A stretch of 64,000 nucleotides of DNA. It comes from Qipengyuania sp. HL-TH1 (GTDB taxonomy: Bacteria > Pseudomonadota > Alphaproteobacteria > Sphingomonadales > Sphingomonadaceae). Shown here one piece after another: positions 47,721 to 62,456 of this stretch (position 1 is its first letter; every line of letters starts with the position of its first letter). Location of the stretch: assembly GCF_036365825.1 (NCBI RefSeq), contig NZ_CP142675.1, positions 2,364,501 to 2,428,500 of the forward strand, in the 5' to 3' direction. A program made the position numbers and the translations under genes. The notes under the pieces were generated by a model, which was not told the DNA's origin, searched no databases, and worked only from the letters and a program-made list of their open reading frames with translations.

Positions 47721-50700
47721 TCAGGCGGCAAGCGCGGGGAGGACCGACGAGGCTGCGGAGACTGGCACGAACAGCCGCGTGCGGTATCGGATAATCTCGG
47801 TGAAGCAGCCCTTGTTCTTGTACCAGTCGAGCCGATCGGGCGAGAAGCCAGTCAGTTCGAGGCGCTGTTCGCCGCCGACCAACGAGCGCTTCACGGTAAG
47901 TGGATCATGGCTTGCGAGGCCCAGCGGTTTTCCGCTTGCGAGGACGAGGTCGCCGATCTGCTCTGCCGATGGTCCGGTAACCCCGGACAGGCCAAAGGTT
48001 TTGGAAATCGCAAAGAGATCAACATCGAGCACTTCACGTCCGATGATCGACTGGCCGTCCTCGGCAACGAGCCGGGTGACCCGGACATGATCGCCAGACA
48101 GGCGCTTCCAGACCGGGAGCAGCAGCCCGGTAGCGAGATGGACGCGCTCGGTCACCGGTGAAGCGCCAGCCTCTTCTTCCTCGGCACGCCAGGCGCTCGT
48201 GAACGCGGTGACGCCAGTTTCTTCCCAGTGGCTTTCACCCAGTGCCTCAAGCGTCCAGTTCGCGGACTTGAGCGGTCGCAGCAGGCGCCGACGTTCGATC
48301 ACCTCCCCGTCGTCGGCGATGAGACGCCGGGCTGGTATCGACAGCGCGACCTTGCCCGAGCGCGCATTGCGCATCGGGATTGCGTGCGGGCTGCCAATCT
48401 CGTGCATCCGTAGCAGGCGCTGCAGGCGCAGAGGCCGCAGGTGCCTCGTCACTTCGAGCGAGACGAGGCGGGTTTCCGCTCCGGTCACGGGGTCGGTGCG
48501 CAGGAGTTCATCGGCGAGGACCGTGAAACGATCGACCTTCACGGTTTCCAGTCCCTGATCGAGCGTTCCGGCCTCGCGCGCGGCTTCGATCCGCGCTTCG
48601 ACGAGGCCAAGATATTCATCGAAGATGGCGTTCTGGAGCGCGATCGGCAGCGCGAGGATGCGGTTGAGCCAGCGCTGGATCGTGGGGAGATTGTCGGTCA
48701 GTCCCCCATCTGGGTTTTCGAGACGGAGGCCCGTTCGCTCGACGAAGTGGCCGAAAGTGGTGGCTTCGAGCTTGCCGTCATAGAGCAGCTGGAACCAGCG
48801 GCTGAGCGCGTCGCGCGCATAATCGCTTTCGAGATTGTCGGCCGGGTCGAACAGGTTCTGTCCGCCGGTCTGGCGCTGGCCGCGCGTAAGCGCGCCCAAA
48901 GCGTCGAGCCTTCGCGCAATAGTCGAGATGAACCGGCGCTCGCCCTTCACATCTGTGGTGACCGGGCGGAACAGCGGGGCTGAGGCCTGATTGGTGCGGT
49001 TCGTGCGACCAAGGCCCTGGATGGCGTTGTCGGCGCGCCATCCCGGTTCAAGCAGGAAGTGAACCCGGCGCTGCTGGTTCCTGGCGCCCAAGTCGGCATG
49101 ATAGGAACGCCCCGTGCCGCCCGCATCCGAGAAGACCAGGATGCGCTTGGTCCCTTCCATGAAGGTTTGCGCTTCGGCGACATTGGCGCTGGGGCTACGC
49201 CGTTCGAGGCGCTGCTCACCATCGCGGCCGAGGACAAGCCTGCGGGTCCGGCCCGTGACTTCGGCCACGGCGTCGGTTCCGAAATGTTCGATAATCGCAT
49301 CGAGCGCAGTGGCGATGGGCGGCAGTGCGCAAAGCTGTTCGATCAGCGCATCGCGCGCAGCAATGGCGCGCGGGCAGAAAACGGGATTGCCCTCTCCGTC
49401 GCTCATCGCCTCGGAGCGAAGATTGCCGTCCTCGTCGGCGAAGACCTGCATCAATCGTATCGGGAAGCTCTTCGTAAGGTAGTCGATGACGTATTCACGC
49501 GGGGACAGATCGATATCGAGAGCTTCGCGTTCTTCCACGGTAAGGTCGGCAAGGCGCCGGTCGAGCATGGCCTCGGCGGTCGAGACCAGCTGCACGACAA
49601 CCGAATGCTCTTCGCCAAGCGCTACTTCCATCGCGGGGATCAGGCTCGGCAATTTCATCGAAAGCAGGAGCTGGGCAAAGAAGCGCTGCTTGGTGCCTTC
49701 GAAGATCGATAGCGCCGCAGCCTTGGCATTGCGGTTGAGCGTGTCGCCGCTGTCCTCGTCGACCACGCGGGTTGCTTCGAGCGCAGCTTCGAGGTTGCGG
49801 TGAATGATCGCCCAGGCATCAGCATAGGCATCATAGATTTTTATCTGCGCTTCGGTCAGGCTGTGTTCGAGGATCTCGTACTCGACCCCGGCGAAGGACA
49901 GCGCACGGGCAAGATAGAGACCCTGGGCCTTGAGATCACGGGCGACGAGCTCCATCGCCGCGACGCCGCCAGCGCGGATCTCGGTCATGAATGCCTCGTG
50001 GGTCGGAAAGGCGGTCTCGGGTCCCCAAAGGCCGAGGCGGGAAGTGTAACCGAGGTTGGCGATATCCGAAGCGCCAGTGGCAGACGCGTAGAGCACGCGG
50101 GCGCGTGGGAGATGGTTTTGCAACCTGAGGCCCGCCATGCCCTGTTCGGAGCCCTTGACCTTGCCGCGGGTTGAAGAGCCCCCAAGCGCATTGGCCATCG
50201 CGTGGGCTTCGTCAAAGGCGATCACACCGTCGAAATCCTCGCCCGCCCAGGCAAGGATCTGGTCGAGCCGCGTATCCTCGGCGCGGCCCGAGCGCAGCGT
50301 TGGATAGGTGACGAAGAGAATGCCTTCGGACATCGTTACGGGCTGGCCGAGTTTCCAGCGCGAGAGCGGCTGGAGATCGAGCGGCAGCCCGCCAAGCGCC
50401 TCCCAGTCGCGGCGTGCATCTTCGAGCAGCGCCTCGTTCTTGGTGATCCAGACATGTCGGCGCTCGCCTGCGAGCCAGCGATCCATGATGACCGCGGCGA
50501 TCTGCCGTCCTTTGCCCGCTCCGGTTCCGTCGCCGAGGAAGAAGCCTTGGCGGTAGGAGTGTCCGTCCTCGGAGAGTTCCAGCGAGGTGCCTTCCTGGCT
50601 CACCTTGAACTGACCCGGAAGATCGCGCGCAAATGCCTGGGCAGCGTAGACCAGTGTCTCGCATTGCGCTTCGGACAGCAGGCCATCGGCCTGCCAACAT

Positions 50701-51968
50701 GCGGGAAGGCGCGGGCAAACATCGGGCTGCGGTGCCGCGACCGAACCCATGGCGACCGATTCCACGAGCGGGGTGGGATGGGCCGGAGCGCCTTCGAACG
50801 CGATGCGGCTGGGCCGGTAAGGCAGGTAGATGCCTGCCTGTTCGGGCACAGGCGCGGGGTCGGCGAGGACCGAATAGGCAAGGTCGATCGCATTCGCCGT
50901 GGCTGCTGGTGTCGCGGCGAACGGCGCCACCGGCCGAACCGGCGCGCTTTGGGCCGAAGTCTTGCCAACGAGGCGCACTGGCTTGCCGAGCGGCAGGCGG
51001 TGGATGTTGGCGGAGGTCTGTATGCGTGGCGGAAGCGCAGTGATAAGCTCGTGGAGCGAGATGAGGTCGGCAGTATCTCCGGTGATCGCAGGCGAGGACG
51101 CAGTCGGCGTCTTGTCGAACACAACCAGGCGAACAGCGATCCCCGTCCCTGTCCGGCGAAACATCTGCTGCAGGCGAACATCGAGGAGCAGCGATGCTTC
51201 GTCCTGTTCCTTGGCGAAGGCGGAGGCGTCGAAGCCTTCAGGCATAATGGCGACGATCCTCGCCCGATTAGCAGCGGCCCGGATTGCACCGCGTAGGTGA
51301 CGCATAGCGGTCTCACCGTCCTTGCCGCGTTCCAGGCTGTGAGCGAACGGCGGGTTCATCAGCACGGCAGACGGAACAGGGCCGCGAAGCAAGTCGGCGA
51401 TCAGTTCCCCGTCATGCGCAGTGATGGTGGCCGTGGGGAAGACGTGGGCCAGACCGTCTCGTCTTGCCGGATCGATCTCGTTGAGGAGCAGCGAAGCGTT
51501 CTGGACGCTGCCCCAAAGAGCAAGGGCACCATTGCCTGCGGACGGTTCGAGGAGCGTGTCTTGCGCGCAGCCAGCTGCGGCCTTCGCCATCAGCCAGGCC
51601 AGCATTGGCGGGGTCGAGAACTGCTGGAGCTCGACCTGTGCTTCGCTGCGCACATGCCGCGGCGGAAAGGCAGCTTGGAGCCAGTCGAACCGCGCTTCGG
51701 CTTCATGCACGTTCGTCGCCAGATCGATCCGTGAGGACTCTCGCAACCAGAGCAGTGCGCCGATCTCGACCGCGTTATTGTAGTCAGCGATGGTCCAGGC
51801 GCTTCCCCAGTCCAAAGATCCAGTCTCCTCGGCGAACAGCCCGGAAATGTCGGTACGGGTAAGATGACGTCCCGAAGCAAGAAGCGCGGCAACTCGGGTG
51901 CCGATGGCATAGGCCAAGGGCATGGACGGCAACTGCTCGCCGGCGGGAAACAGGTCTGATTGAAACAT
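47721..51968 (-). CDS. Methyltransferase/strawberry-notch-like helicase fusion (1415 residues)
   Basis: A giant plasmid protein. The N-terminal part has a class I methyltransferase fold (LLEPSAGNGALALWG, motif I; SAVLMNPPFAHSLERG, NPPF motif near residue 213). The middle holds an SF2-type helicase of the strawberry-notch kind: GDGTGAGKGRQIAAVIMD (Walker A-like, near 490), GVIAFDEAHAMANALG (DEAH), ARVLYASATGASDIANLGY, and the C-terminal helicase half with QGLGRTNRTNQASAPLF. Combined methyltransferase-helicase proteins such as P1 DarB counter restriction; a similar protective or DNA-processing role here is inference. In one transcript with the Toprim protein upstream and ParB downstream. Confidence 0.88.
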   Translation of the reverse strand: MFQSDLFPAGEQLPSMPLAYAIGTRVAALLASGRHLTRTDISGLFAEETGSLDWGSAWTIADYNNAVEIGALLWLRESSRIDLATNVHEAEARFDWLQAAFPPRHVRSEAQVELQQFSTPPMLAWLMAKAAAGCAQDTLLEPSAGNGALALWGSVQNASLLLNEIDPARRDGLAHVFPTATITAHDGELIADLLRGPVPSAVLMNPPFAHSLERGKDGETAMRHLRGAIRAAANRARIVAIMPEGFDASAFAKEQDEASLLLDVRLQQMFRRTGTGIAVRLVVFDKTPTASSPAITGDTADLISLHELITALPPRIQTSANIHRLPLGKPVRLVGKTSAQSAPVRPVAPFAATPAATANAIDLAYSVLADPAPVPEQAGIYLPYRPSRIAFEGAPAHPTPLVESVAMGSVAAPQPDVCPRLPACWQADGLLSEAQCETLVYAAQAFARDLPGQFKVSQEGTSLELSEDGHSYRQGFFLGDGTGAGKGRQIAAVIMDRWLAGERRHVWITKNEALLEDARRDWEALGGLPLDLQPLSRWKLGQPVTMSEGILFVTYPTLRSGRAEDTRLDQILAWAGEDFDGVIAFDEAHAMANALGGSSTRGKVKGSEQGMAGLRLQNHLPRARVLYASATGASDIANLGYTSRLGLWGPETAFPTHEAFMTEIRAGGVAAMELVARDLKAQGLYLARALSFAGVEYEILEHSLTEAQIKIYDAYADAWAIIHRNLEAALEATRVVDEDSGDTLNRNAKAAALSIFEGTKQRFFAQLLLSMKLPSLIPAMEVALGEEHSVVVQLVSTAEAMLDRRLADLTVEEREALDIDLSPREYVIDYLTKSFPIRLMQVFADEDGNLRSEAMSDGEGNPVFCPRAIAARDALIEQLCALPPIATALDAIIEHFGTDAVAEVTGRTRRLVLGRDGEQRLERRSPSANVAEAQTFMEGTKRILVFSDAGGTGRSYHADLGARNQQRRVHFLLEPGWRADNAIQGLGRTNRTNQASAPLFRPVTTDVKGERRFISTIARRLDALGALTRGQRQTGGQNLFDPADNLESDYARDALSRWFQLLYDGKLEATTFGHFVERTGLRLENPDGGLTDNLPTIQRWLNRILALPIALQNAIFDEYLGLVEARIEAAREAGTLDQGLETVKVDRFTVLADELLRTDPVTGAETRLVSLEVTRHLRPLRLQRLLRMHEIGSPHAIPMRNARSGKVALSIPARRLIADDGEVIERRRLLRPLKSANWTLEALGESHWEETGVTAFTSAWRAEEEEAGASPVTERVHLATGLLLPVWKRLSGDHVRVTRLVAEDGQSIIGREVLDVDLFAISKTFGLSGVTGPSAEQIGDLVLASGKPLGLASHDPLTVKRSLVGGEQRLELTGFSPDRLDWYKNKGCFTEIIRYRTRLFVPVSAASSVLPALAA

Positions 51969-52043
51969 GGCAATTCGTCCTCCTGATGGGGGCATCGGGA
52001 CACGCCCTCTGCCGGATCAGGAATTCGAGAAGCTCTCTCTCCT

Positions 52044-54612: not shown

Positions 54613-55836
54613 TCAACCCTTCGCAAACTTCCCCATGATGACCTTTCCTCCAGTCCGGAGCTCATCGAGGTAGTCGCTCCACCATTGAGCCATCCGCACG
54701 CGCTCGTCCCAATGCTTGCCGCGATGGTAGATGCCACGCACAACATTGCTGTCGCCATGTGCCAAGGCACGCTCGATCGCATCAGGATTCCAAAGGCCCG
54801 ACTCGTTCAGGAATGTCGATGCTGTCGCCCGGAGTCCATGAGCGGTGACTTCTTCCTTCGAGTATCCCATGCGACGGAATGCGGCATTGAGCGTGTTTTC
54901 ACTCATGGGACGCTTGGAGCTGCGCGCAGATGGGAAAACATATCCTTCGCGGCCGAGCATCTCGGCCAGATCAGTGAGATAGCCTCTAACCTGCTTGGAA
55001 AGTGGGACGGCATGCGCTCGGCGCGCTTTCATTTTACCGGCAGGGATCTTCCAGACCCCATCGACGAGGTCGATCTCATGCCATTCGGCGTGCCGGAGTT
55101 CGCCGGGGCGTACGAACACATGCGGCGCTATCTGCAAGGCCAACTTCGTCACCATGTAGCCAGTAAAGTCGTCGATTGCGCGCAGCAGCCCACCTAGCTC
55201 GGTGGGCTCGAGGATTGCTGCATAATGCGTGGCTCTCGGCGTTACGAGAGCGCCCTTCAGCATACTGGTCGGATCGGATTTGCAGCGGGTGGTAGCAACA
55301 CCGTAGCGAAACACGCGGCCTGCGAACGACCGACATTTCTTCGCAGTCTCGTGCTTACCGGTGGCTTCCAGCCGTTTGAGGGGAGCCAGAACTTCGAACG
55401 GCTCGATCTCGTTGATGGGTCGGTTCCCGATGGCAGGCGCAAGCTTGTCGAGGAAATAGTTGGCCTTGACGATCGTGCCATCGGCGCGGCCGTTCTGGAC
55501 CATCATCTGTTCAATATACTCACGTGCGACTGCCTCGAACGTCTGTGCAGAAAGGAACTCTGCGCGGATTTTCCGCTTCCGCTTCTCAAAAGCCGGGTCG
55601 CCCCCTGAAGCAACAGCTCGTCGCGCCTCGTAGGCCGCGTCTCGCGCTTGCTTGAGGCTGATGTCGGGATAGCTGCCGATGCAGAGCTTCTTTTGCGCGC
55701 CGCCGATCCGGTATCGGAATCGCCAAAGTTTGCCGCCGGTCGGCGTGACCTCAACATATAGGCCGCGCTCATCGGTTACCTTGTACGGCTTATCCTTGGG
55801 CTTGAGTGCGCGGAGGCGAGTATCTGTCAGCGGCAT
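54613..55836 (-). CDS. int: Tyrosine recombinase/integrase (P4-like)
   Basis: A 407-residue integrase likely responsible for inserting this element at a tRNA-Leu gene. The N-terminal DUF4102 domain is clear (LTDTRLRALKPKDKPYKVTD, GLYVEVTPTGGKLWRFRYRI). The catalytic domain keeps VRPGELRHAEW (Arg), EVTAHGLRATASTF (HxxR), RALAHGDSNVVRG (His) and IYHRGKHWDERVRM (Tyr nucleophile). No disruption is visible. The gene starts 166 bases from a 22-bp copy of a tRNA-Leu 3' end (56002-56023), the expected place for attP. Confidence 0.92.
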   Translation of the reverse strand: MPLTDTRLRALKPKDKPYKVTDERGLYVEVTPTGGKLWRFRYRIGGAQKKLCIGSYPDISLKQARDAAYEARRAVASGGDPAFEKRKRKIRAEFLSAQTFEAVAREYIEQMMVQNGRADGTIVKANYFLDKLAPAIGNRPINEIEPFEVLAPLKRLEATGKHETAKKCRSFAGRVFRYGVATTRCKSDPTSMLKGALVTPRATHYAAILEPTELGGLLRAIDDFTGYMVTKLALQIAPHVFVRPGELRHAEWHEIDLVDGVWKIPAGKMKARRAHAVPLSKQVRGYLTDLAEMLGREGYVFPSARSSKRPMSENTLNAAFRRMGYSKEEVTAHGLRATASTFLNESGLWNPDAIERALAHGDSNVVRGIYHRGKHWDERVRMAQWWSDYLDELRTGGKVIMGKFAKG

Positions 55837-57474: not shown

Positions 57475-58230
57475 CTACTCGAGCATTTCGGCGGATTTAA
57501 TCACTACCAAAGTGAGGGCGTCACCCGTCGACATCCGAACGGTCTGCTCATAGACCTCGTATCGTTCCGCCTCCCAACGATCAAACCAAGCATCGGCGCC
57601 AATCAGGCTTCTGGTCGTCCGTTCTTTCGTGCCGTGAAGAACCTCAAGAGCGTCGGAATCGGCGTCAATCTCATCGCGCGGAAACCAGCGGTCAGGAACA
57701 GTGGGGCCGCGTTTGAACCAACGCCTCCCGTTTGGGCCGTGACAAACGAGCAATGCGGGCTCCGGACCATAGTCCACCATTCTCAGCGCTGTTGCTGTCC
57801 GACTGGTCTGAAATTCAGCTCTGATCTGATCCACCGCATCGAAGGTCGCTTTGCCGTACTGCTTCGCCATTGGCGCAAAGAGGAAACCGGGCAGCAACAG
57901 GTCGGCGGCATAGGCATCCGCGACGCGCTCCGGATCCGTGAGGCTGCGTCTTTGGTTACCGATCTCGTCGGAACGACAAACGAACGAGCGGCCGCGATGA
58001 TATTTCCAGTGACCCAGCTCATGCGCGACCGAAAAGCGCCGCCGTTGCCAAATCCCGCTGGAATCGACGGTGATGATCGCTCGATCACCGTAGCCGATTA
58101 TACGAGCCTCGCAGCTATCGAGCTTCGCAAACCGGACCTCTGCACCCGCGTCCCAGGCGATGGCCTCGACATCAATGTCCTTCGCGGCGTCAATGCCTAG
58201 TTCCCGCAACAGCTTCTCGGCGGCGCTCAT
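57475..58230 (-). CDS. ImmA/IrrE-family zinc metallopeptidase
   Basis: Proteases of this family (ImmA, IrrE/PprI, CapP) cleave a partner repressor in response to DNA damage or phage signals. The 251-residue product has HELGH at residues 70-74 and ERVADAYAADLLLPG at about 101-115, giving the third zinc ligand and the family's LLLP signature. The C-terminal 120 residues are an extra domain with VPDRWFPRDEID. The ATG at 58230 has GAGG five bases upstream and lies five bases after the 144-codon gene. As last gene of a three-gene operon facing away from the CBASS genes it may act like CapP, with an unusual partner. Confidence 0.85.
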   Translation of the reverse strand: MSAAEKLLRELGIDAAKDIDVEAIAWDAGAEVRFAKLDSCEARIIGYGDRAIITVDSSGIWQRRRFSVAHELGHWKYHRGRSFVCRSDEIGNQRRSLTDPERVADAYAADLLLPGFLFAPMAKQYGKATFDAVDQIRAEFQTSRTATALRMVDYGPEPALLVCHGPNGRRWFKRGPTVPDRWFPRDEIDADSDALEVLHGTKERTTRSLIGADAWFDRWEAERYEVYEQTVRMSTGDALTLVVIKSAEMLE

Positions 58231-58235
58231 CGACC

Positions 58236-58670
58236 TCAACGCGGATTGCCTTGATCGTCGATTGCACCCAAGTCGCGGAGATCCCGCAGTATATCGTCAA
58301 TCTCACGCTCGGATGCACCCTCGCCCTTACGCGCCGCCATGGTCATGCGATCCCGGAGGCGGCCATCATTTGCCGCAAACTGTGCGAGAATCTCCTGCTT
58401 GCGCGAGATCGGCAGGTGGAACAAGTTCGAGGCAGCGCGATCTGCTCGCGCTTCCGCTAGTCCAGCGCGAGCGCGCGCGAGCCGCAACTTCCCGCTTTCA
58501 GCAACCAAGCCCTCAATATGGGCGCGCAGTTCTGCGGCAACAACTTCCGGATCGAACCCGTCGGCACGAGTCTCCGCGAACACCTCTTCATCGGAAAGGG
58601 TCATCCAGTCCTCGACCAACGCGTCTGCGAACGGCAACAGCTTTTGCCCAGGCGTCGTGTTACGTGTCAT
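58236..58670 (-). CDS. Uncharacterised 144-residue protein between sigma-like and ImmA/IrrE genes
   Basis: A soluble, helical, charged protein: LPFADALVEDWMTLSDEEVF, AAELRAHIEGLVAESGKLRL, ARAGLAEARADRAASNLFHL, then MTMAARKGEGASEREIDDIL. The helical arrangement and its place between a sigma-like protein and a protease suggest an adaptor, anti-sigma or protease substrate role; nothing in the sequence proves it. It overlaps the sigma-like gene by ATGA and ends five bases before the protease ATG. Confidence 0.7.
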   Translation of the reverse strand: MTRNTTPGQKLLPFADALVEDWMTLSDEEVFAETRADGFDPEVVAAELRAHIEGLVAESGKLRLARARAGLAEARADRAASNLFHLPISRKQEILAQFAANDGRLRDRMTMAARKGEGASEREIDDILRDLRDLGAIDDQGNPR

Positions 58671-59233
58671 TGGACCCAGCCTTTCGGAAAGGCGACATTG
58701 ATGCGCCGACGCATCCTGCGCCGAATCGTAGCGAAGGTCGCTTCATCCCAGTCGCCGAGTGCGCGTATTTCCCCGGCGTTCATATCCTCGAGATCGCCCA
58801 TAAGGACGAGCTGAGCATCTTCATCGTCGTGGAACAAACCTTCAAGCGCCTTCAATCGTGCTTGGGAATCTTCGCGTTCCAGCAACGTCTCCTCCGCATT
58901 TCGATCGGTGGCCCGCGGTTCGATGACAACCTGGCCATCGTCCAAAGTGGAACTCATACTTTCGATCATGGGTTCCTCCTTCTCGCTCTCTCGCGCGGCC
59001 CACGCCATGCTGCGCATCGCGCCAATGAGAAAGTTCAAGAGAGGCAAGTCCTTCGGGCATTTTCGTGTGCCATCCAGCGCCCTTCGGATGGCTTCGTTGA
59101 CGACATCACGTGCCTCGACCCCAATCCCGACCGCATAAATTACGGCTGCACGTTCTAGGCGCAAGAAGTCGGCCGCCGTTAGCGCGGCAAGAGCGTCTTG
59201 TACCTCCTGCGTCGTGAGGACCGCCGTACTCAA
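58667..59233 (-). CDS. Sigma-70-like (ECF-type) regulatory protein
   Basis: About 188 residues. The N-terminal half resembles sigma region 2 (ALTAADFLRLERAAVIYAVG, ARDVVNEAIRRALDGTRKCP, PLLNFLIGAMRSMAWAARES), the C-terminal part region 4 (LEGLFHDDEDAQLVLMGDLE, MNAGEIRALGDWDEATFATI, then RRRMRRRI). The linker is acidic. No ATG fits: TTG at 59233 (GGGGGC upstream) or TTG at 59266 are the choices. First gene of the sigma-like/144/ImmA trio, divergent from the CBASS operon across 184 bases. It may drive or sense expression of the defence genes; that is inference. Confidence 0.7.
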   Translation of the reverse strand: MSTAVLTTQEVQDALAALTAADFLRLERAAVIYAVGIGVEARDVVNEAIRRALDGTRKCPKDLPLLNFLIGAMRSMAWAARESEKEEPMIESMSSTLDDGQVVIEPRATDRNAEETLLEREDSQARLKALEGLFHDDEDAQLVLMGDLEDMNAGEIRALGDWDEATFATIRRRMRRRINVAFPKGWVQ

Positions 59234-59417
59234 ATCATTGCCCCCGTTCTTGACCCCTCGACACAATAGGCTGCGATGGCGTCGATCTCGGACGTTACGA
59301 GAAAAAAATAATTGGGCAATGTCCGAGGCCCAGCTTCCACCAGCCTACGTGTTCAGAAGATCAACTAGCGGCGAAGTCGTACGAAATGTTGGTCGGCGAA
59401 CTGATGAGGCATATATC

Positions 59418-59642
59418 ATGGCAGGAAAAAACCAGCATGTTGTTCCCCACGCGAATGGATGGGCGGTTCGGGGCGCGGGCAATAACCGCGTGACCTCGGT
59501 GCATCAGACGCAACGTGAGGCGAACGAGCAAGCGCGTGACATCGCGCAGAATCAGTCCAGCGAAGTGCTGATCCACGGTCGCAATGGTCGCATTCGTGAA
59601 CGCAACAGCTACGGCAACGATCCGTTCCCCCCGAAAGGATAA
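59418..59642 (+). CDS. DUF2188 protein at the head of the CBASS operon
   Basis: A 74-residue protein with the DUF2188 pattern: KNQHVVPHANGWAVRGAGNN, then TQREANEQARDIAQNQSSEV and GRNGRIRERNSYGNDPFPPK. I chose the ATG at 59418, where the family begins; an in-frame ATG at 59319 would add 33 codons of poor quality. It lies 7 bases before the CD-NTase gene, so it is probably co-transcribed. Function unknown; DUF2188 proteins often occur in defence contexts, but no activity can be inferred. Confidence 0.8.
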   Translation: MAGKNQHVVPHANGWAVRGAGNNRVTSVHQTQREANEQARDIAQNQSSEVLIHGRNGRIRERNSYGNDPFPPKG

Positions 59643-59649
59643 CCGAACA

Positions 59650-60951
59650 ATGGCGACTGCTCCCGCCCCCGAACTCGATACCTCTACGCTCGACGAGATT
59701 CTTCTCGACCTAGCCGTCCTCATCGAACTCAGCCCGCACGATCGTGAGATCGCGGAAAACCGCTACCGGCGGCTCAAGGAATATGTCGAACGTCCGACGA
59801 GCCCGTTGCGGCCATATCTCGTCGATGGCGAGAGCTTGATCTATGCGCAAGGATCCGTCGCTACCAGCACGACGATCTTGAGCGGCGACAACGACGACCG
59901 TTTCGACGTCGACGCTATCGTGGAAATTGACGTGCCGCTGCACTGGCCCGAAAGCGAACCGCTCGACCAGCTGTTCGAGACACTGAAGAACTTCCCCGGC
60001 GCCGTTGAGGTGGTTCGTTGCACCCGCTGCGTTCAGATCCGCTTTGCCTTCATGCACATGGACGTCACCGTCATGGATCGTCGGCAGCGGATGGGTGGTG
60101 AGCGGCCCGGCCATATTTTCCATTCGCCAGATACCGGACCGACCTATCGCGTCGATTCGAATCCCTGGGGATTCACCGGTTGGTTTCGGACTCAGGTAGG
60201 CATTGGTGAGCGCCTGTTTGAGCAGCGGCTTAAAGCTGCGCGCGACGCGGCGGGCTTGTCCCGCCTGATTGTGGTCGACGAAGCGGAGCGCCGCATCCTC
60301 GCCGATGCCGAGCAAGTACCGCTTCCGCCGATGATCCCATCTCGGATCGACGCGCAGGAAGCGGTCGCGCTAAAGCTCCTGAAGCGTTACCTTAACTTGC
60401 GCTACACGCACTCGCGCCTGAAGCGGCCGCCGTCGATCTGGCTCACCAAGCTGACCGGCGACATGGGGCTGATTCAGGGCGGGCTTACTCTTCAACTCTA
60501 TGCCCTGTCGAAGTTCATCTCCGATAGCCTGCGCGAGCACCTGGCACGCCGCACGGTGCCTCGTGAAGTGAATCCGAGCTACCCACCCGACAAGATCAAT
60601 GATCGTTGGCCGCGTGCATGGCCGGAGGCGGAATCCGACATGACCGTGCTGGCGGACCACCTCGACCTGCTCGCGGATGCCATCGAAAAGATGAACTGCT
60701 CTTCGCAGAGCGCGATCCTGAAGAAGATCGACGAACTGTTCGGCGAACGGTTCGGGCAGGAAGAACGCCGCATTCTCAAGGATCGCTACGATCGGCGAAC
60801 CACAAGCGGGGGCGATTTGCTCATCAAGCCGGGTTCCGGGACGATCTACACACCGGCGATTGCTGCCGCGAAACAGGAAGTGCAGCCAATTCCGCAGCAT
60901 CGCTTCCATCCCGGTCGCCTGCCCTCGGATGGAGAAGCCTCGGGTGGCTGA
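59650..60951 (+). CDS. CBASS CD-NTase (cGAS/DncV-like nucleotidyltransferase)
   Basis: Makes the cyclic oligonucleotide alarm signal after phage infection. The 433-residue protein has the polymerase-beta-like core: YAQGSVATSTTIL (GS motif), RFDVDAIVEI (first two catalytic Asp, D-x-D) and MHMDVTVMDR (third acidic residue), followed by the helical OAS1-C-like part with DAQEAVALKLLKRYLNLRY. All active-site residues appear intact. The ATG at 59650 is near the DUF2188 stop, and the stop overlaps the E2-like gene. Product identity cannot be told by eye; effectors of patatin type respond to cGAMP-like dinucleotides in known systems. Confidence 0.9.
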   Translation: MATAPAPELDTSTLDEILLDLAVLIELSPHDREIAENRYRRLKEYVERPTSPLRPYLVDGESLIYAQGSVATSTTILSGDNDDRFDVDAIVEIDVPLHWPESEPLDQLFETLKNFPGAVEVVRCTRCVQIRFAFMHMDVTVMDRRQRMGGERPGHIFHSPDTGPTYRVDSNPWGFTGWFRTQVGIGERLFEQRLKAARDAAGLSRLIVVDEAERRILADAEQVPLPPMIPSRIDAQEAVALKLLKRYLNLRYTHSRLKRPPSIWLTKLTGDMGLIQGGLTLQLYALSKFISDSLREHLARRTVPREVNPSYPPDKINDRWPRAWPEAESDMTVLADHLDLLADAIEKMNCSSQSAILKKIDELFGERFGQEERRILKDRYDRRTTSGGDLLIKPGSGTIYTPAIAAAKQEVQPIPQHRFHPGRLPSDGEASGG

Positions 60952-61435
60952 TGGCTCAAGATCCACACATGCACAACTGAATGCCATGCGCCGCCTGTGG
61001 CCGAACTTCCACGGGCGGCGTCACGAAAACGGCCTGGTGGTCTGGCGCGGAGTGCTCAAGCCACGCGCACAAGCGTACGCCGTGAACATATTGTGGTGGC
61101 CGGGGAAGATTGATCGCCCCTATGTGATGATCGCCGATCCGCCAATCGAGCCTCGGCCTGGAGGCAACTATGTCCAGATTCCTCACCTGATGTTTGATTC
61201 GGACAACCCTATAAAGTCGGGGCTTTGTCTGTTCGATCCGGACGGGCGGGAGTGGAGCGATGCGGATCTCATCTCGGAGACGACAGTGAAATGGACTAGC
61301 GAGTGGCTGCACTACTACGAGCTGTGGCACCTCACCGGGGAGTGGCTGGGACCGAGCGTCGGATACGAGTCGGTCGCACAGATGAACGCCATTGAAGCTG
61401 AGTCCATTCGCGCAGCCGTGGCTGATGTTCACTGA
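60944..61435 (+). CDS. cap2: E2-like Cap2 protein (E2-only, type II-short CBASS)
   Basis: Ubiquitin-E2-like protein that primes the CD-NTase by conjugating its C-terminus. About 163 residues; no E1 domain is present. The E2 active-site region reads VQIPHLMFDSDNPIKSGLCL with His 81 and candidate catalytic Cys 95, followed by FDPDGREW and WLHYYELWHLTGEWLGPSVG, which match bacterial E2 proteins of CBASS. The CD-NTase ends in Gly-Gly, as expected for the substrate of such conjugation. I chose GTG at 60944, which overlaps the CD-NTase stop; ATG at 60986 is the alternative. Confidence 0.82.
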   Translation: MADGSRSTHAQLNAMRRLWPNFHGRRHENGLVVWRGVLKPRAQAYAVNILWWPGKIDRPYVMIADPPIEPRPGGNYVQIPHLMFDSDNPIKSGLCLFDPDGREWSDADLISETTVKWTSEWLHYYELWHLTGEWLGPSVGYESVAQMNAIEAESIRAAVADVH

Positions 61436-62456
61436 TCGCCGTGCCGGAAGCCTGGCGATTCGCCGGGGCCGCCAGCCCTGGCCGGAGGGCAAGGTCTTCA
61501 AGATACTTTCCCTCGACGGCGGAGGGATCAAGGGCATCTACAGTGCTCAGTTCCTTGCCCGATGCGAGCAGGAGCTGACCGCTGGCAAGCCCCTGGCATC
61601 CTATTTCGACATGATCGCCGGAACGTCAACCGGCGGCATTATCGCGCTGGGACTCGCGCTCGGCTATTCCACCTCGGATATTCTGGATTTCTACACGAAC
61701 GACGGACGCAGAATATTTCCTCCGTTGCCCACTACCCGGCTCGGCAAATGGTGGCGAGGCTTCCGCTGGCTGTTCCGGCCGCATCTCAACCACCAGGAAT
61801 TGGAAAAGGCGCTGAGACTAAGGTTTGGCGACCGTTTCCTCGGCGAAGCAACGACGCGGGTCGTCATCCCCGCCTTTTTGGTCCCCAAGACCGAAATCGC
61901 GGTGTTCAAGACCGACCACCACTCCGATTTCCGCAACGACTACAAGACGCGGGCTTGGGAGGTTGCCCGCGCGACTTCCGCAGCTCCCACCTATTTGAAA
62001 GGGTACGAACACACGCCCTCAGGCCGAATTTTCATCGACGGCGGCGTTTGGGCAAACAACCCGGTGATGGTGGCACTAGTGGACGTATTGAGCGCCTATG
62101 AGATTTCACCTGACCAAATCGACATCCTTAGCATTGGCACCGGCAATCCGCCGTTCGAATTGCGGCCGAAAGCGGCGCTAGGCGGCGCAGTTTCTTGGCG
62201 AGGGGCGATCAAAGCGGCGATGTTCCTGACCACCGACAATGCAACGGCTCAGGCCAAGTTATTGCTCGGACCTGATACATGTCTCCGGGTCGAGCCCGCT
62301 GGCGATGACGGGACTATCGAAATGGACGATTACGATCGAGCGCTATCTATCCTTCCGAGATCGGCGGATCGGGATTTCGACGAATTGAGAGAGGAAGTCG
62401 CGCGGTTTTTTGCCGAAGCTGCGCTCCCAAGGGAACGTCACTACACTGATGCATAG
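61425..62456 (+). CDS. capV: Patatin-like phospholipase effector CapV
   Basis: CBASS effector that degrades membrane phospholipids when bound by the cyclic nucleotide. The 343-residue protein has the oxyanion loop DGGGIKG at 31-37, the nucleophile elbow GTSTG with Ser 68, and the catalytic Asp in DGG at 205-207 (FIDGGVWANNP). A proline/arginine-rich N-terminus precedes. The ATG at 61425 overlaps the E2 stop. Complete and apparently active, unlike the patatin fragment at 34618. Confidence 0.9.
   Translation: MFTDRRAGSLAIRRGRQPWPEGKVFKILSLDGGGIKGIYSAQFLARCEQELTAGKPLASYFDMIAGTSTGGIIALGLALGYSTSDILDFYTNDGRRIFPPLPTTRLGKWWRGFRWLFRPHLNHQELEKALRLRFGDRFLGEATTRVVIPAFLVPKTEIAVFKTDHHSDFRNDYKTRAWEVARATSAAPTYLKGYEHTPSGRIFIDGGVWANNPVMVALVDVLSAYEISPDQIDILSIGTGNPPFELRPKAALGGAVSWRGAIKAAMFLTTDNATAQAKLLLGPDTCLRVEPAGDDGTIEMDDYDRALSILPRSADRDFDELREEVARFFAEAALPRERHYTDA

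Follow-up and report, generated by a model that had tools for sequence, protein, structure and literature searches.

We propose that the CBASS immune operon of Qipengyuania sp. HL-TH1 is controlled by activation and not by derepression: in what we regard as the probable reading of this locus, an ECF sigma/anti-sigma pair gated by a CapP protease drives both the immune operon and itself. The locus lies in a stretch of 64,000 nucleotides, referred to here as the window, and coordinates are those of the window unless another locus is named. The sigma-like protein would bind RNA polymerase as an ECF-type sigma factor, and in the resting state it would be kept inactive by a 144-residue protein acting as an anti-sigma factor. 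CapP would be activated by single-stranded DNA (ssDNA), as reported for CapP and PprI, and the switch would be one that senses damage. Active CapP would cleave the 144-residue protein near its C-terminal A-A-R motif, freeing the sigma factor to read two back-to-back promoters of the form TGTCCGA-N16/17-GC(A/C)TA, one serving the immune operon and the other the sigma factor's own operon; transcription from the first would turn CBASS on, and transcription from the second would provide positive feedback.

If true, the logic of such a sigma switch is the opposite of that of the repressor-based CBASS controllers. The operon promoter would presumably go unread by the housekeeping polymerase and, with positive feedback added, a sharper, all-or-none response would become possible for systems that kill the cell. 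The short promoter motif is searchable and would offer a route to further operons, undescribed ones among them, that share this control. Beyond HL-TH1, we hold with rather less confidence, but still favour, a wider reading: a mobile sigma/anti-sigma/CapP cassette, found in seven sampled phyla, would constitute a family of dedicated immune sigma factors, bringing its own promoter and an autocatalytic on-switch to CBASS, Pycsar, Bub-like, MBL-E2-E1 and small DUF2188-type operons and to some Tn7-like transposons, which would be kept silent by lack of the sigma factor and not by a repressor.

The proposed regulatory trio and the divergent CBASS operon

The trio consists of three open reading frames on the minus strand, in the order sigma-like gene (58667–59233; 188 residues with sigma-2 and sigma-4 regions, TTG start), 144-residue gene (58236–58670) and CapP gene (57475–58239; 254 residues), with each neighbouring pair overlapping by 4 bases. 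Their place agrees with the first-pass annotation, as does the distance of 184 bases to the CBASS side, which corresponds to the gap between the sigma-like gene and the DUF2188 gene (59234–59417). An alternative, longer TTG start of the sigma-like gene at 59266 would abut the edge of the predicted −10 box.

Facing away from the trio on the plus strand are genes for a DUF2188 protein (59418–59642; Pfam DUF2188, 2.3e-24; PADLOC candidate PDC-S16, 4.3e-39), a CD-NTase, the CBASS cyclase (59650–60951; PADLOC Cyclase PDLC00813, 9.3e-186), a CBASS E2-like protein (60986–61435; PADLOC E2 PDLC00876, 6.5e-59) and a CapV-type patatin phospholipase effector (61425–62456; NCBIfam CBASS_lipase, 7.5e-71, above the cut-off; Pfam Patatin, 2.6e-31), the starts of the last three being those of the gene caller. 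With CD-NTase, E2-like protein and effector within one operon, this is, by gene content, a type II-short CBASS. Near the cassette lie a 1424-residue ORF that is helicase/methylase-like by eye (47721–51995) and a tyrosine integrase recognised by Pfam (54613–55836).

The protease matches the PADLOC capP model over almost its whole length (E=1.9e-61, 205.7 bits, residues 3–247 against profile positions 5–241 of 242) and Pfam Peptidase_M78 at 2e-10, and the top PDB match of an eight-row protease profile is CapP itself (7t5t, 2.7e-13). The HExxH motif of zinc peptidases reads AHELGH in HL-TH1 and HE[LIM]G[HY] in 75 of 75 relatives. The earlier label of ImmA/IrrE protease was right as to type and too loose, the protein being a member of the CapP family.

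The 188-residue protein belongs to a family that shows homology, by profile comparison, to both region 2 and region 4 of ECF sigma factors. A 61-row family profile matches a SigH-type chimera in PDB at 1.2e-7 (positions 37–180 of 192) and SigH at 3.7e-7, and sigma factors make up 14 of the 19 listed PDB chains at E≤1. TIGR02937 (sigma70-ECF) is matched by 22 of the 61 members at E≤0.01; the HL-TH1 protein alone scores 0.011 and misses that cut-off.

The 144-residue protein had been described as unknown; it carries a CapH-like C-terminal Arg motif. R114, within [T][LVM]AAR, is the most conserved position of the middle-protein family after the start Met (58 of 59 rows), and in the C-terminal region of CapH, which we take to be the protease-sensitive part, R80, within FFR, is present in 17 of 17; a profile alignment of the two families pairs these residues weakly (hhalign E=0.014, probability 3%). 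The HL-TH1 protein matches the PADLOC capH model weakly (E=2.3e-5, residues 45–136), as do 29 of the 59 family members at E≤0.01. An ordinary, HTH-bearing CapH was considered and ruled out, since no HTH appears among the Pfam matches of the HL-TH1 protein at E≤1. Given how many middle proteins the capH model picks up, loci of this kind may earlier have been tallied as CapH+CapP. The computed evidence supports the earlier suggestion that the CapH repressor has been replaced, its place being occupied by the sigma-like protein together with another protein.

We infer that the 144-residue protein is an anti-sigma factor and that CapP cuts it near the R114 region. In DdrO, the substrate of PprI, the cleavage loop holds Arg118, mutation of which weakened the interaction with PprI (PMC10904395). 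An alternative is that the sigma factor is real and the 144-residue protein is its adaptor, chaperone or co-activator, or that CapP acts on the sigma factor itself, and a middle protein with no sequence match to known anti-sigma families in Pfam or PDB would suit this. The arrangement of the genes speaks against it: sigma factor, partner and protease overlap in that order, the partner is present at 67 of the 69 non-redundant sigma loci described below (in 61 of 66 its gene overlaps that of the sigma factor), and it bears the CapH-like Arg motif. We regard a role other than anti-sigma factor and CapP substrate as unlikely.

Promoter-like motifs between the sigma gene and the immune operon

A bipartite promoter-like motif, TGTCCGA-N16/17-GC(A/C)TA, occurs back to back between the sigma gene and the immune operon. 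It emerged without a prior model from a search for dyads in 75 regions, each taking in at most 260 bases on the upstream side of the sigma gene. The set comprises 65 loci of the genome-contig scan described below, the window and loci L014 and L018, L019, L020, L021, L022, L023, L024 and L025, and leaves out L074, L091, L086, L077, L093, L102, L089, L015 and loci without a sigma gene. The dyad ATGC-N19-GGAC is present in 18 of the 75 regions against 0.0 expected, and TGTCCG on either strand in 46 against 8.65 expected. In the window, the predicted promoter toward the CBASS operon (59320–59347, plus strand; TGTCCGA-N16-GCCTA) has the window's highest position weight matrix (PWM) score, 19.2, and that toward the sigma operon (59267–59294, minus strand; CGTCCGA-N16-GCCTA) scores 15.8, with its −10 box 33 bases from the TTG start.

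At a PWM score of at least 10, a site faces the sigma gene in 53 of the 75 regions, the operon in 49 and both in 43, compared with averages of 1.4, 3.0 and 0.2 in five rounds of shuffled regions and with 9, 10 and 0 among 467 regions upstream of other called genes of the same loci. Because the PWM was trained on the 75 regions, two-fold cross-validation was run, with a seed consensus derived from the whole set; it recovered 46, 43 and 36 of 75 against 10, 9 and 0 of 375 shuffles. The pair is absent at this threshold from 32 of the 75 regions, among them many beta-proteobacterial and non-proteobacterial loci and also the alphaproteobacterial L023, L024, L073 and L084. At 17 CapH loci, one motif match was found in 34 directions, and no pair.

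The geometry of the pairs is promoter-like. Between the end of the −10 box and the start codon of the sigma gene the median distance is 26 bases (n=42), and the −35 boxes stand back to back with a median gap of 13 bases (n=42). An autoregulated promoter is common in ECF sigma systems, and judged by sequence only, such a promoter, cognate to the sigma factor and composed of −35 and −10 boxes, is found here too.

An exact search of the 3.3-Mb HL-TH1 genome with TGTCCGAN{16,17}GCCTA returns the CBASS promoter as its sole match; a reversed control pattern likewise has one match, which puts the count by itself at chance level, and it is the place of the match that matters. Allowing one mismatch gives 41 sites, which include the copy facing the sigma gene, compared with 25 for the reversed pattern, and we claim no wider regulon in this genome. 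Viral contigs hold 45 CapP-like loci, two of which have sigma and middle genes: L175 carries a back-to-back pair of one variant with scores below the threshold (6.5 and 5.9), and L174, with a partial sigma gene, has no convincing pair. The phage records searched gave no match.

Within a locus, the two promoters are more similar than expected. Across 32 loci below 50% sigma identity they agree at 12.69 of 15 positions compared with 10.59 expected, a value reached in 0 of 5000 permutations, and in 30 of the 32 the spacers are equal in length and in 30 the third base of GCATA/GCCTA is the same. The similarity of paired spacer sequences likewise exceeds expectation (0.43 versus 0.31), so part of this pairing could reflect an old duplication.

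The −35 bases, in turn, co-vary with the sigma factor. By mutual information over 50 loci (five traits by 180 columns, uncorrected for multiple tests or phylogeny), residue 168 ranks top for −35 position 7 and residue 172 top for −35 position 5, and both do so again in 29 loci thinned to below 40% sigma identity, residue 86 being in a near tie with 168 (z 3.4 versus 3.5). Where residue 172 is Lys or Arg the base is C in 41 of 42 loci; where it is Thr, Asn or Gln the base is G or T in 6 of 8. Both residues lie in what we take, from the alignment and general sigma anatomy, to be the sigma-4 recognition helix. For −10 position 3, residue 67 ranks first in the 50 loci; in the thinned set residue 109 is top and 67 fourth.

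The first-pass annotation had the sigma-like protein activate defence genes, and with divergent promoter-like pairs whose −35 bases co-vary with predicted sigma-4 residues, this is most likely so; the promoter evidence is what makes a sigma role likely. A different account treats the trio as a split CapH: the sigma-like protein would be merely a DNA-binding repressor acting through a sigma-4-like HTH, the 144-residue protein would correspond to the C-terminal part of CapH, and cleavage by CapP would derepress CBASS, on the model of CapH+CapP. The Arg motif common to the middle protein and CapH fits this, as does the fact that the named partner of CapP is a repressor (PMC13373217). The sites, however, are asymmetric −35/−10 pairs with a 16–17 base spacer at a fairly constant distance from the sigma start, not symmetric operators, and R57 and S75 of region 2 are as conserved as R176 of region 4; we consider a split CapH improbable.

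Recurrence of the trio and the operons it adjoins

A tblastn search of plasmids with the HL-TH1 sigma-like protein matched 13 records, one of them from Cereibacter sphaeroides 2.4.1, and an intact trio divergent from another operon was present in six of the nine regions read, those of Cereibacter sphaeroides CH10 (CD-NTase, E2, SAVED), Rhodobacteraceae S2214, Sagittula, Fuscovulum, Bradyrhizobium (ThiF, patatin) and Aestuarium, in the last of which the protease is annotated as hypothetical and is CapP by alignment. A second Cereibacter record has the protease annotated as two short ORFs, a split CapP; Microvirga (L025) has a sigma ORF, with no CapP seen in the region read, and no CapP was seen with the sigma relative at L015. 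On a Mesorhizobium plasmid (L021, 5860–8366), a sigma factor and a short middle protein stand beside multiubiquitin-ThiF, with a 478-residue gene replacing CapP. The Fuscovulum trio is adjoined by a strawberry-notch gene, and that of Aestuarium by DNA primase and methylase genes.

The sigma profile matched 29 of 385 alphaproteobacterial genomes. Matches in 26 of these reach only 4.5e-11 or worse and were not accepted as family members; the three at E<1e-50 are the window, genome G421, whose trio lies beside ubiquitin-like and E2/JAB-like ORFs (by eye), and genome G459, in which no CapP was seen beside the sigma gene. Four same-genus sigma matches (L002–L005, 30–32% identity) were rejected as trios, no CapP being visible by eye in the 2.7–3.5 kb of each. 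Starting from the sigma factor, an intact trio was thus found in 8 of 12 places read (six of nine plasmid regions, two of three genomes). Trios are rare, and some relatives of the sigma factor come without a CapP.

The sigma alignment is too little conserved to serve as a genome-scan query. A scan of genome contigs with the CapP alignment yielded 79 loci, which are silent on prevalence because they were fetched with patterns from trio CapPs. A sigma gene lies upstream of CapP in 72, namely 71 identified by profiles and L089, which has a sigma profile match and a CapP that runs into the contig end. The other seven comprise two with insertion-sequence-like ORFs (L028, L065), two at contig edges (L033, L104) and three in which no sigma gene was detected (L032, L051, L059). 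At L028 (8226–9576) and L065 (8457–9625) the insertion-sequence-like ORFs, recognised by eye, lie in or at the place of the sigma gene, and the CapP gene is kept. Removal of two copies (L074 of L073, L091 of L090) and one near-copy (L086 of L084) left 69 non-redundant sigma loci.

A known or candidate immune operon lies on the promoter side of 54 of these 69 loci: 14 CBASS, one co-directional CBASS, 18 Bub/E1 (including L078, which is CBASS by its DncV-like CD-NTase), five MBL-E2-E1-JAB, two Pycsar and 14 small DUF2188/DUF3892/p93/p85 operons standing alone, the immune role of which is putative. Representatives of most operon classes were checked with Pfam or PADLOC; the MBL class takes its name from weak PADLOC matches of one representative (RTasMBL, 1.6e-10; LmuA, 2.3e-9) that has no Pfam match. 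On the opposite, downstream side, the same class profiles match at one of 54 loci, here those with 5 kb of sequence on that side, a control that sees promoter-side families only, because the profiles were built from promoter-side genes. To judge by these neighbourhoods, the trio serves systems besides CBASS.

DUF2188 (PDC-S16), DUF3892 and two unnamed families of 85–93 residues recur as first divergent genes (window 59418–59642; L027, L042, L044, L070, L082 and others), and the 14 loci in which such genes occur without a recognised effector class are possible undescribed immune operons. The 15 loci to which the class script assigned no class comprise three with Tn7-like genes and six with one 314-residue family, both classes missed by the script and assigned separately, L096, whose trio adjoins mraZ/mraW, and five that stay unassigned (L030, L084, L087, L088 and L098). 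The 314-residue family supplies the divergent gene of six loci from beta-proteobacteria (L057, L058, L062, L066, L067, L080), and its L057 member has no Pfam or PADLOC match. The Tn7-like genes divergent from the trio are of TnsA/TnsB/TnsC type in L093 and L095 and of TnsB type in L090, which suggests that transposition could share the switch.

Conversely, the trio might be next to CBASS by chance, either as a stand-alone unit or because it regulates a mobile element; three of the 69 loci adjoin Tn7-like transposition genes, others are on plasmids, and some sigma relatives lack CapP. Against this, known or candidate immune operons flank 54 of the 69 loci on the promoter side and the promoter-like motif faces those operons, so chance neighbourhood was rejected as an explanation for CBASS and we consider this account very improbable. 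The same count meets the concern, raised with the original observation, that the trio might be common far from defence genes.

A search of the 385 alphaproteobacterial genomes with capP gave matches in 80. Among 23 capP loci (L137–L159), which are those of at least 137.9 bits among 30 loci read, with seven weaker loci and G421 contig 9 (209.8 bits) outside the count, two are trios (the window and G421), 19 have an upstream HTH protein (by eye) and two, L144 and L158, fall in neither group. In a quick CapP tree, with rows from Pseudomonadota, Acidobacteriota, Verrucomicrobiota, Planctomycetota, Bacteroidota, Thermodesulfobacteriota and Armatimonadota, a branch with SH-aLRT 92 (not starred) parts 71 trio-type CapPs, three of which come from loci where no intact sigma gene was visible, from 20 CapPs of sigma-less loci, 19 with an HTH partner (by eye) plus L144, whose partner type is undecided. 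On a quick tree of 62 CapPs the type of operon changes at least 29 times among seven types, and the cassette therefore appears modular.

Comparison with known regulators

Among the matches listed in a literature search, from which preprints were outside the scope, no title or abstract opening names a sigma factor that controls CBASS or is partnered with CapP. The closest known system is CapH+CapP, which regulates CBASS and Bub operons: it shares with the trio a CapP-family protease beside an immune operon, a partner with a conserved C-terminal Arg and an overlapping range of operons. In the trio, by contrast, no HTH repressor was detected; there is an ECF-like sigma factor together with a middle protein instead, and promoter-like sites lie on both sides.

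PprI/IrrE-DdrO of Deinococcus likewise combines an M78-type protease with a substrate that has a key Arg, in DdrO in the cleavage loop, and PprI is stimulated by ssDNA (PMC10904395). DdrO, however, is a DNA-binding repressor of DNA-damage-response genes, whereas the trio pairs a sigma factor with an adjacent operon.

The ECF sigma/anti-sigma pairs that undergo regulated proteolysis, such as sigmaP-RsiP and sigmaV-RsiV, resemble the trio in having a sigma gene followed by a probable inhibitor, from which proteolysis is expected to release the sigma factor. Their proteolysis is envelope-sensing and takes place at the membrane, whereas the protease of the trio is cytoplasmic, of the CapP/IrrE type, and ssDNA is its expected signal; the target is an immune operon.

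CapW/BrxR and CapK+CapS are DNA-damage-linked controllers encoded next to immune operons, and CapK resembles anti-sigma-factor kinases (PMC13373217). As described in that source, CapW/BrxR is a WYL repressor and CapK+CapS a kinase with a STAS-wHTH repressor, and unlike the trio they include neither sigma factor nor protease. As outlined there, the CBASS-type controllers CapW/BrxR, CapH+CapP and CapK+CapS all repress and are then removed or inactivated (PMC13373217). The trio likely departs from them in its use of a dedicated sigma factor and, with a middle protein that would be an anti-sigma factor cleaved by CapP, it would be a CapP-controlled immune regulator with reversed logic, working through activation.
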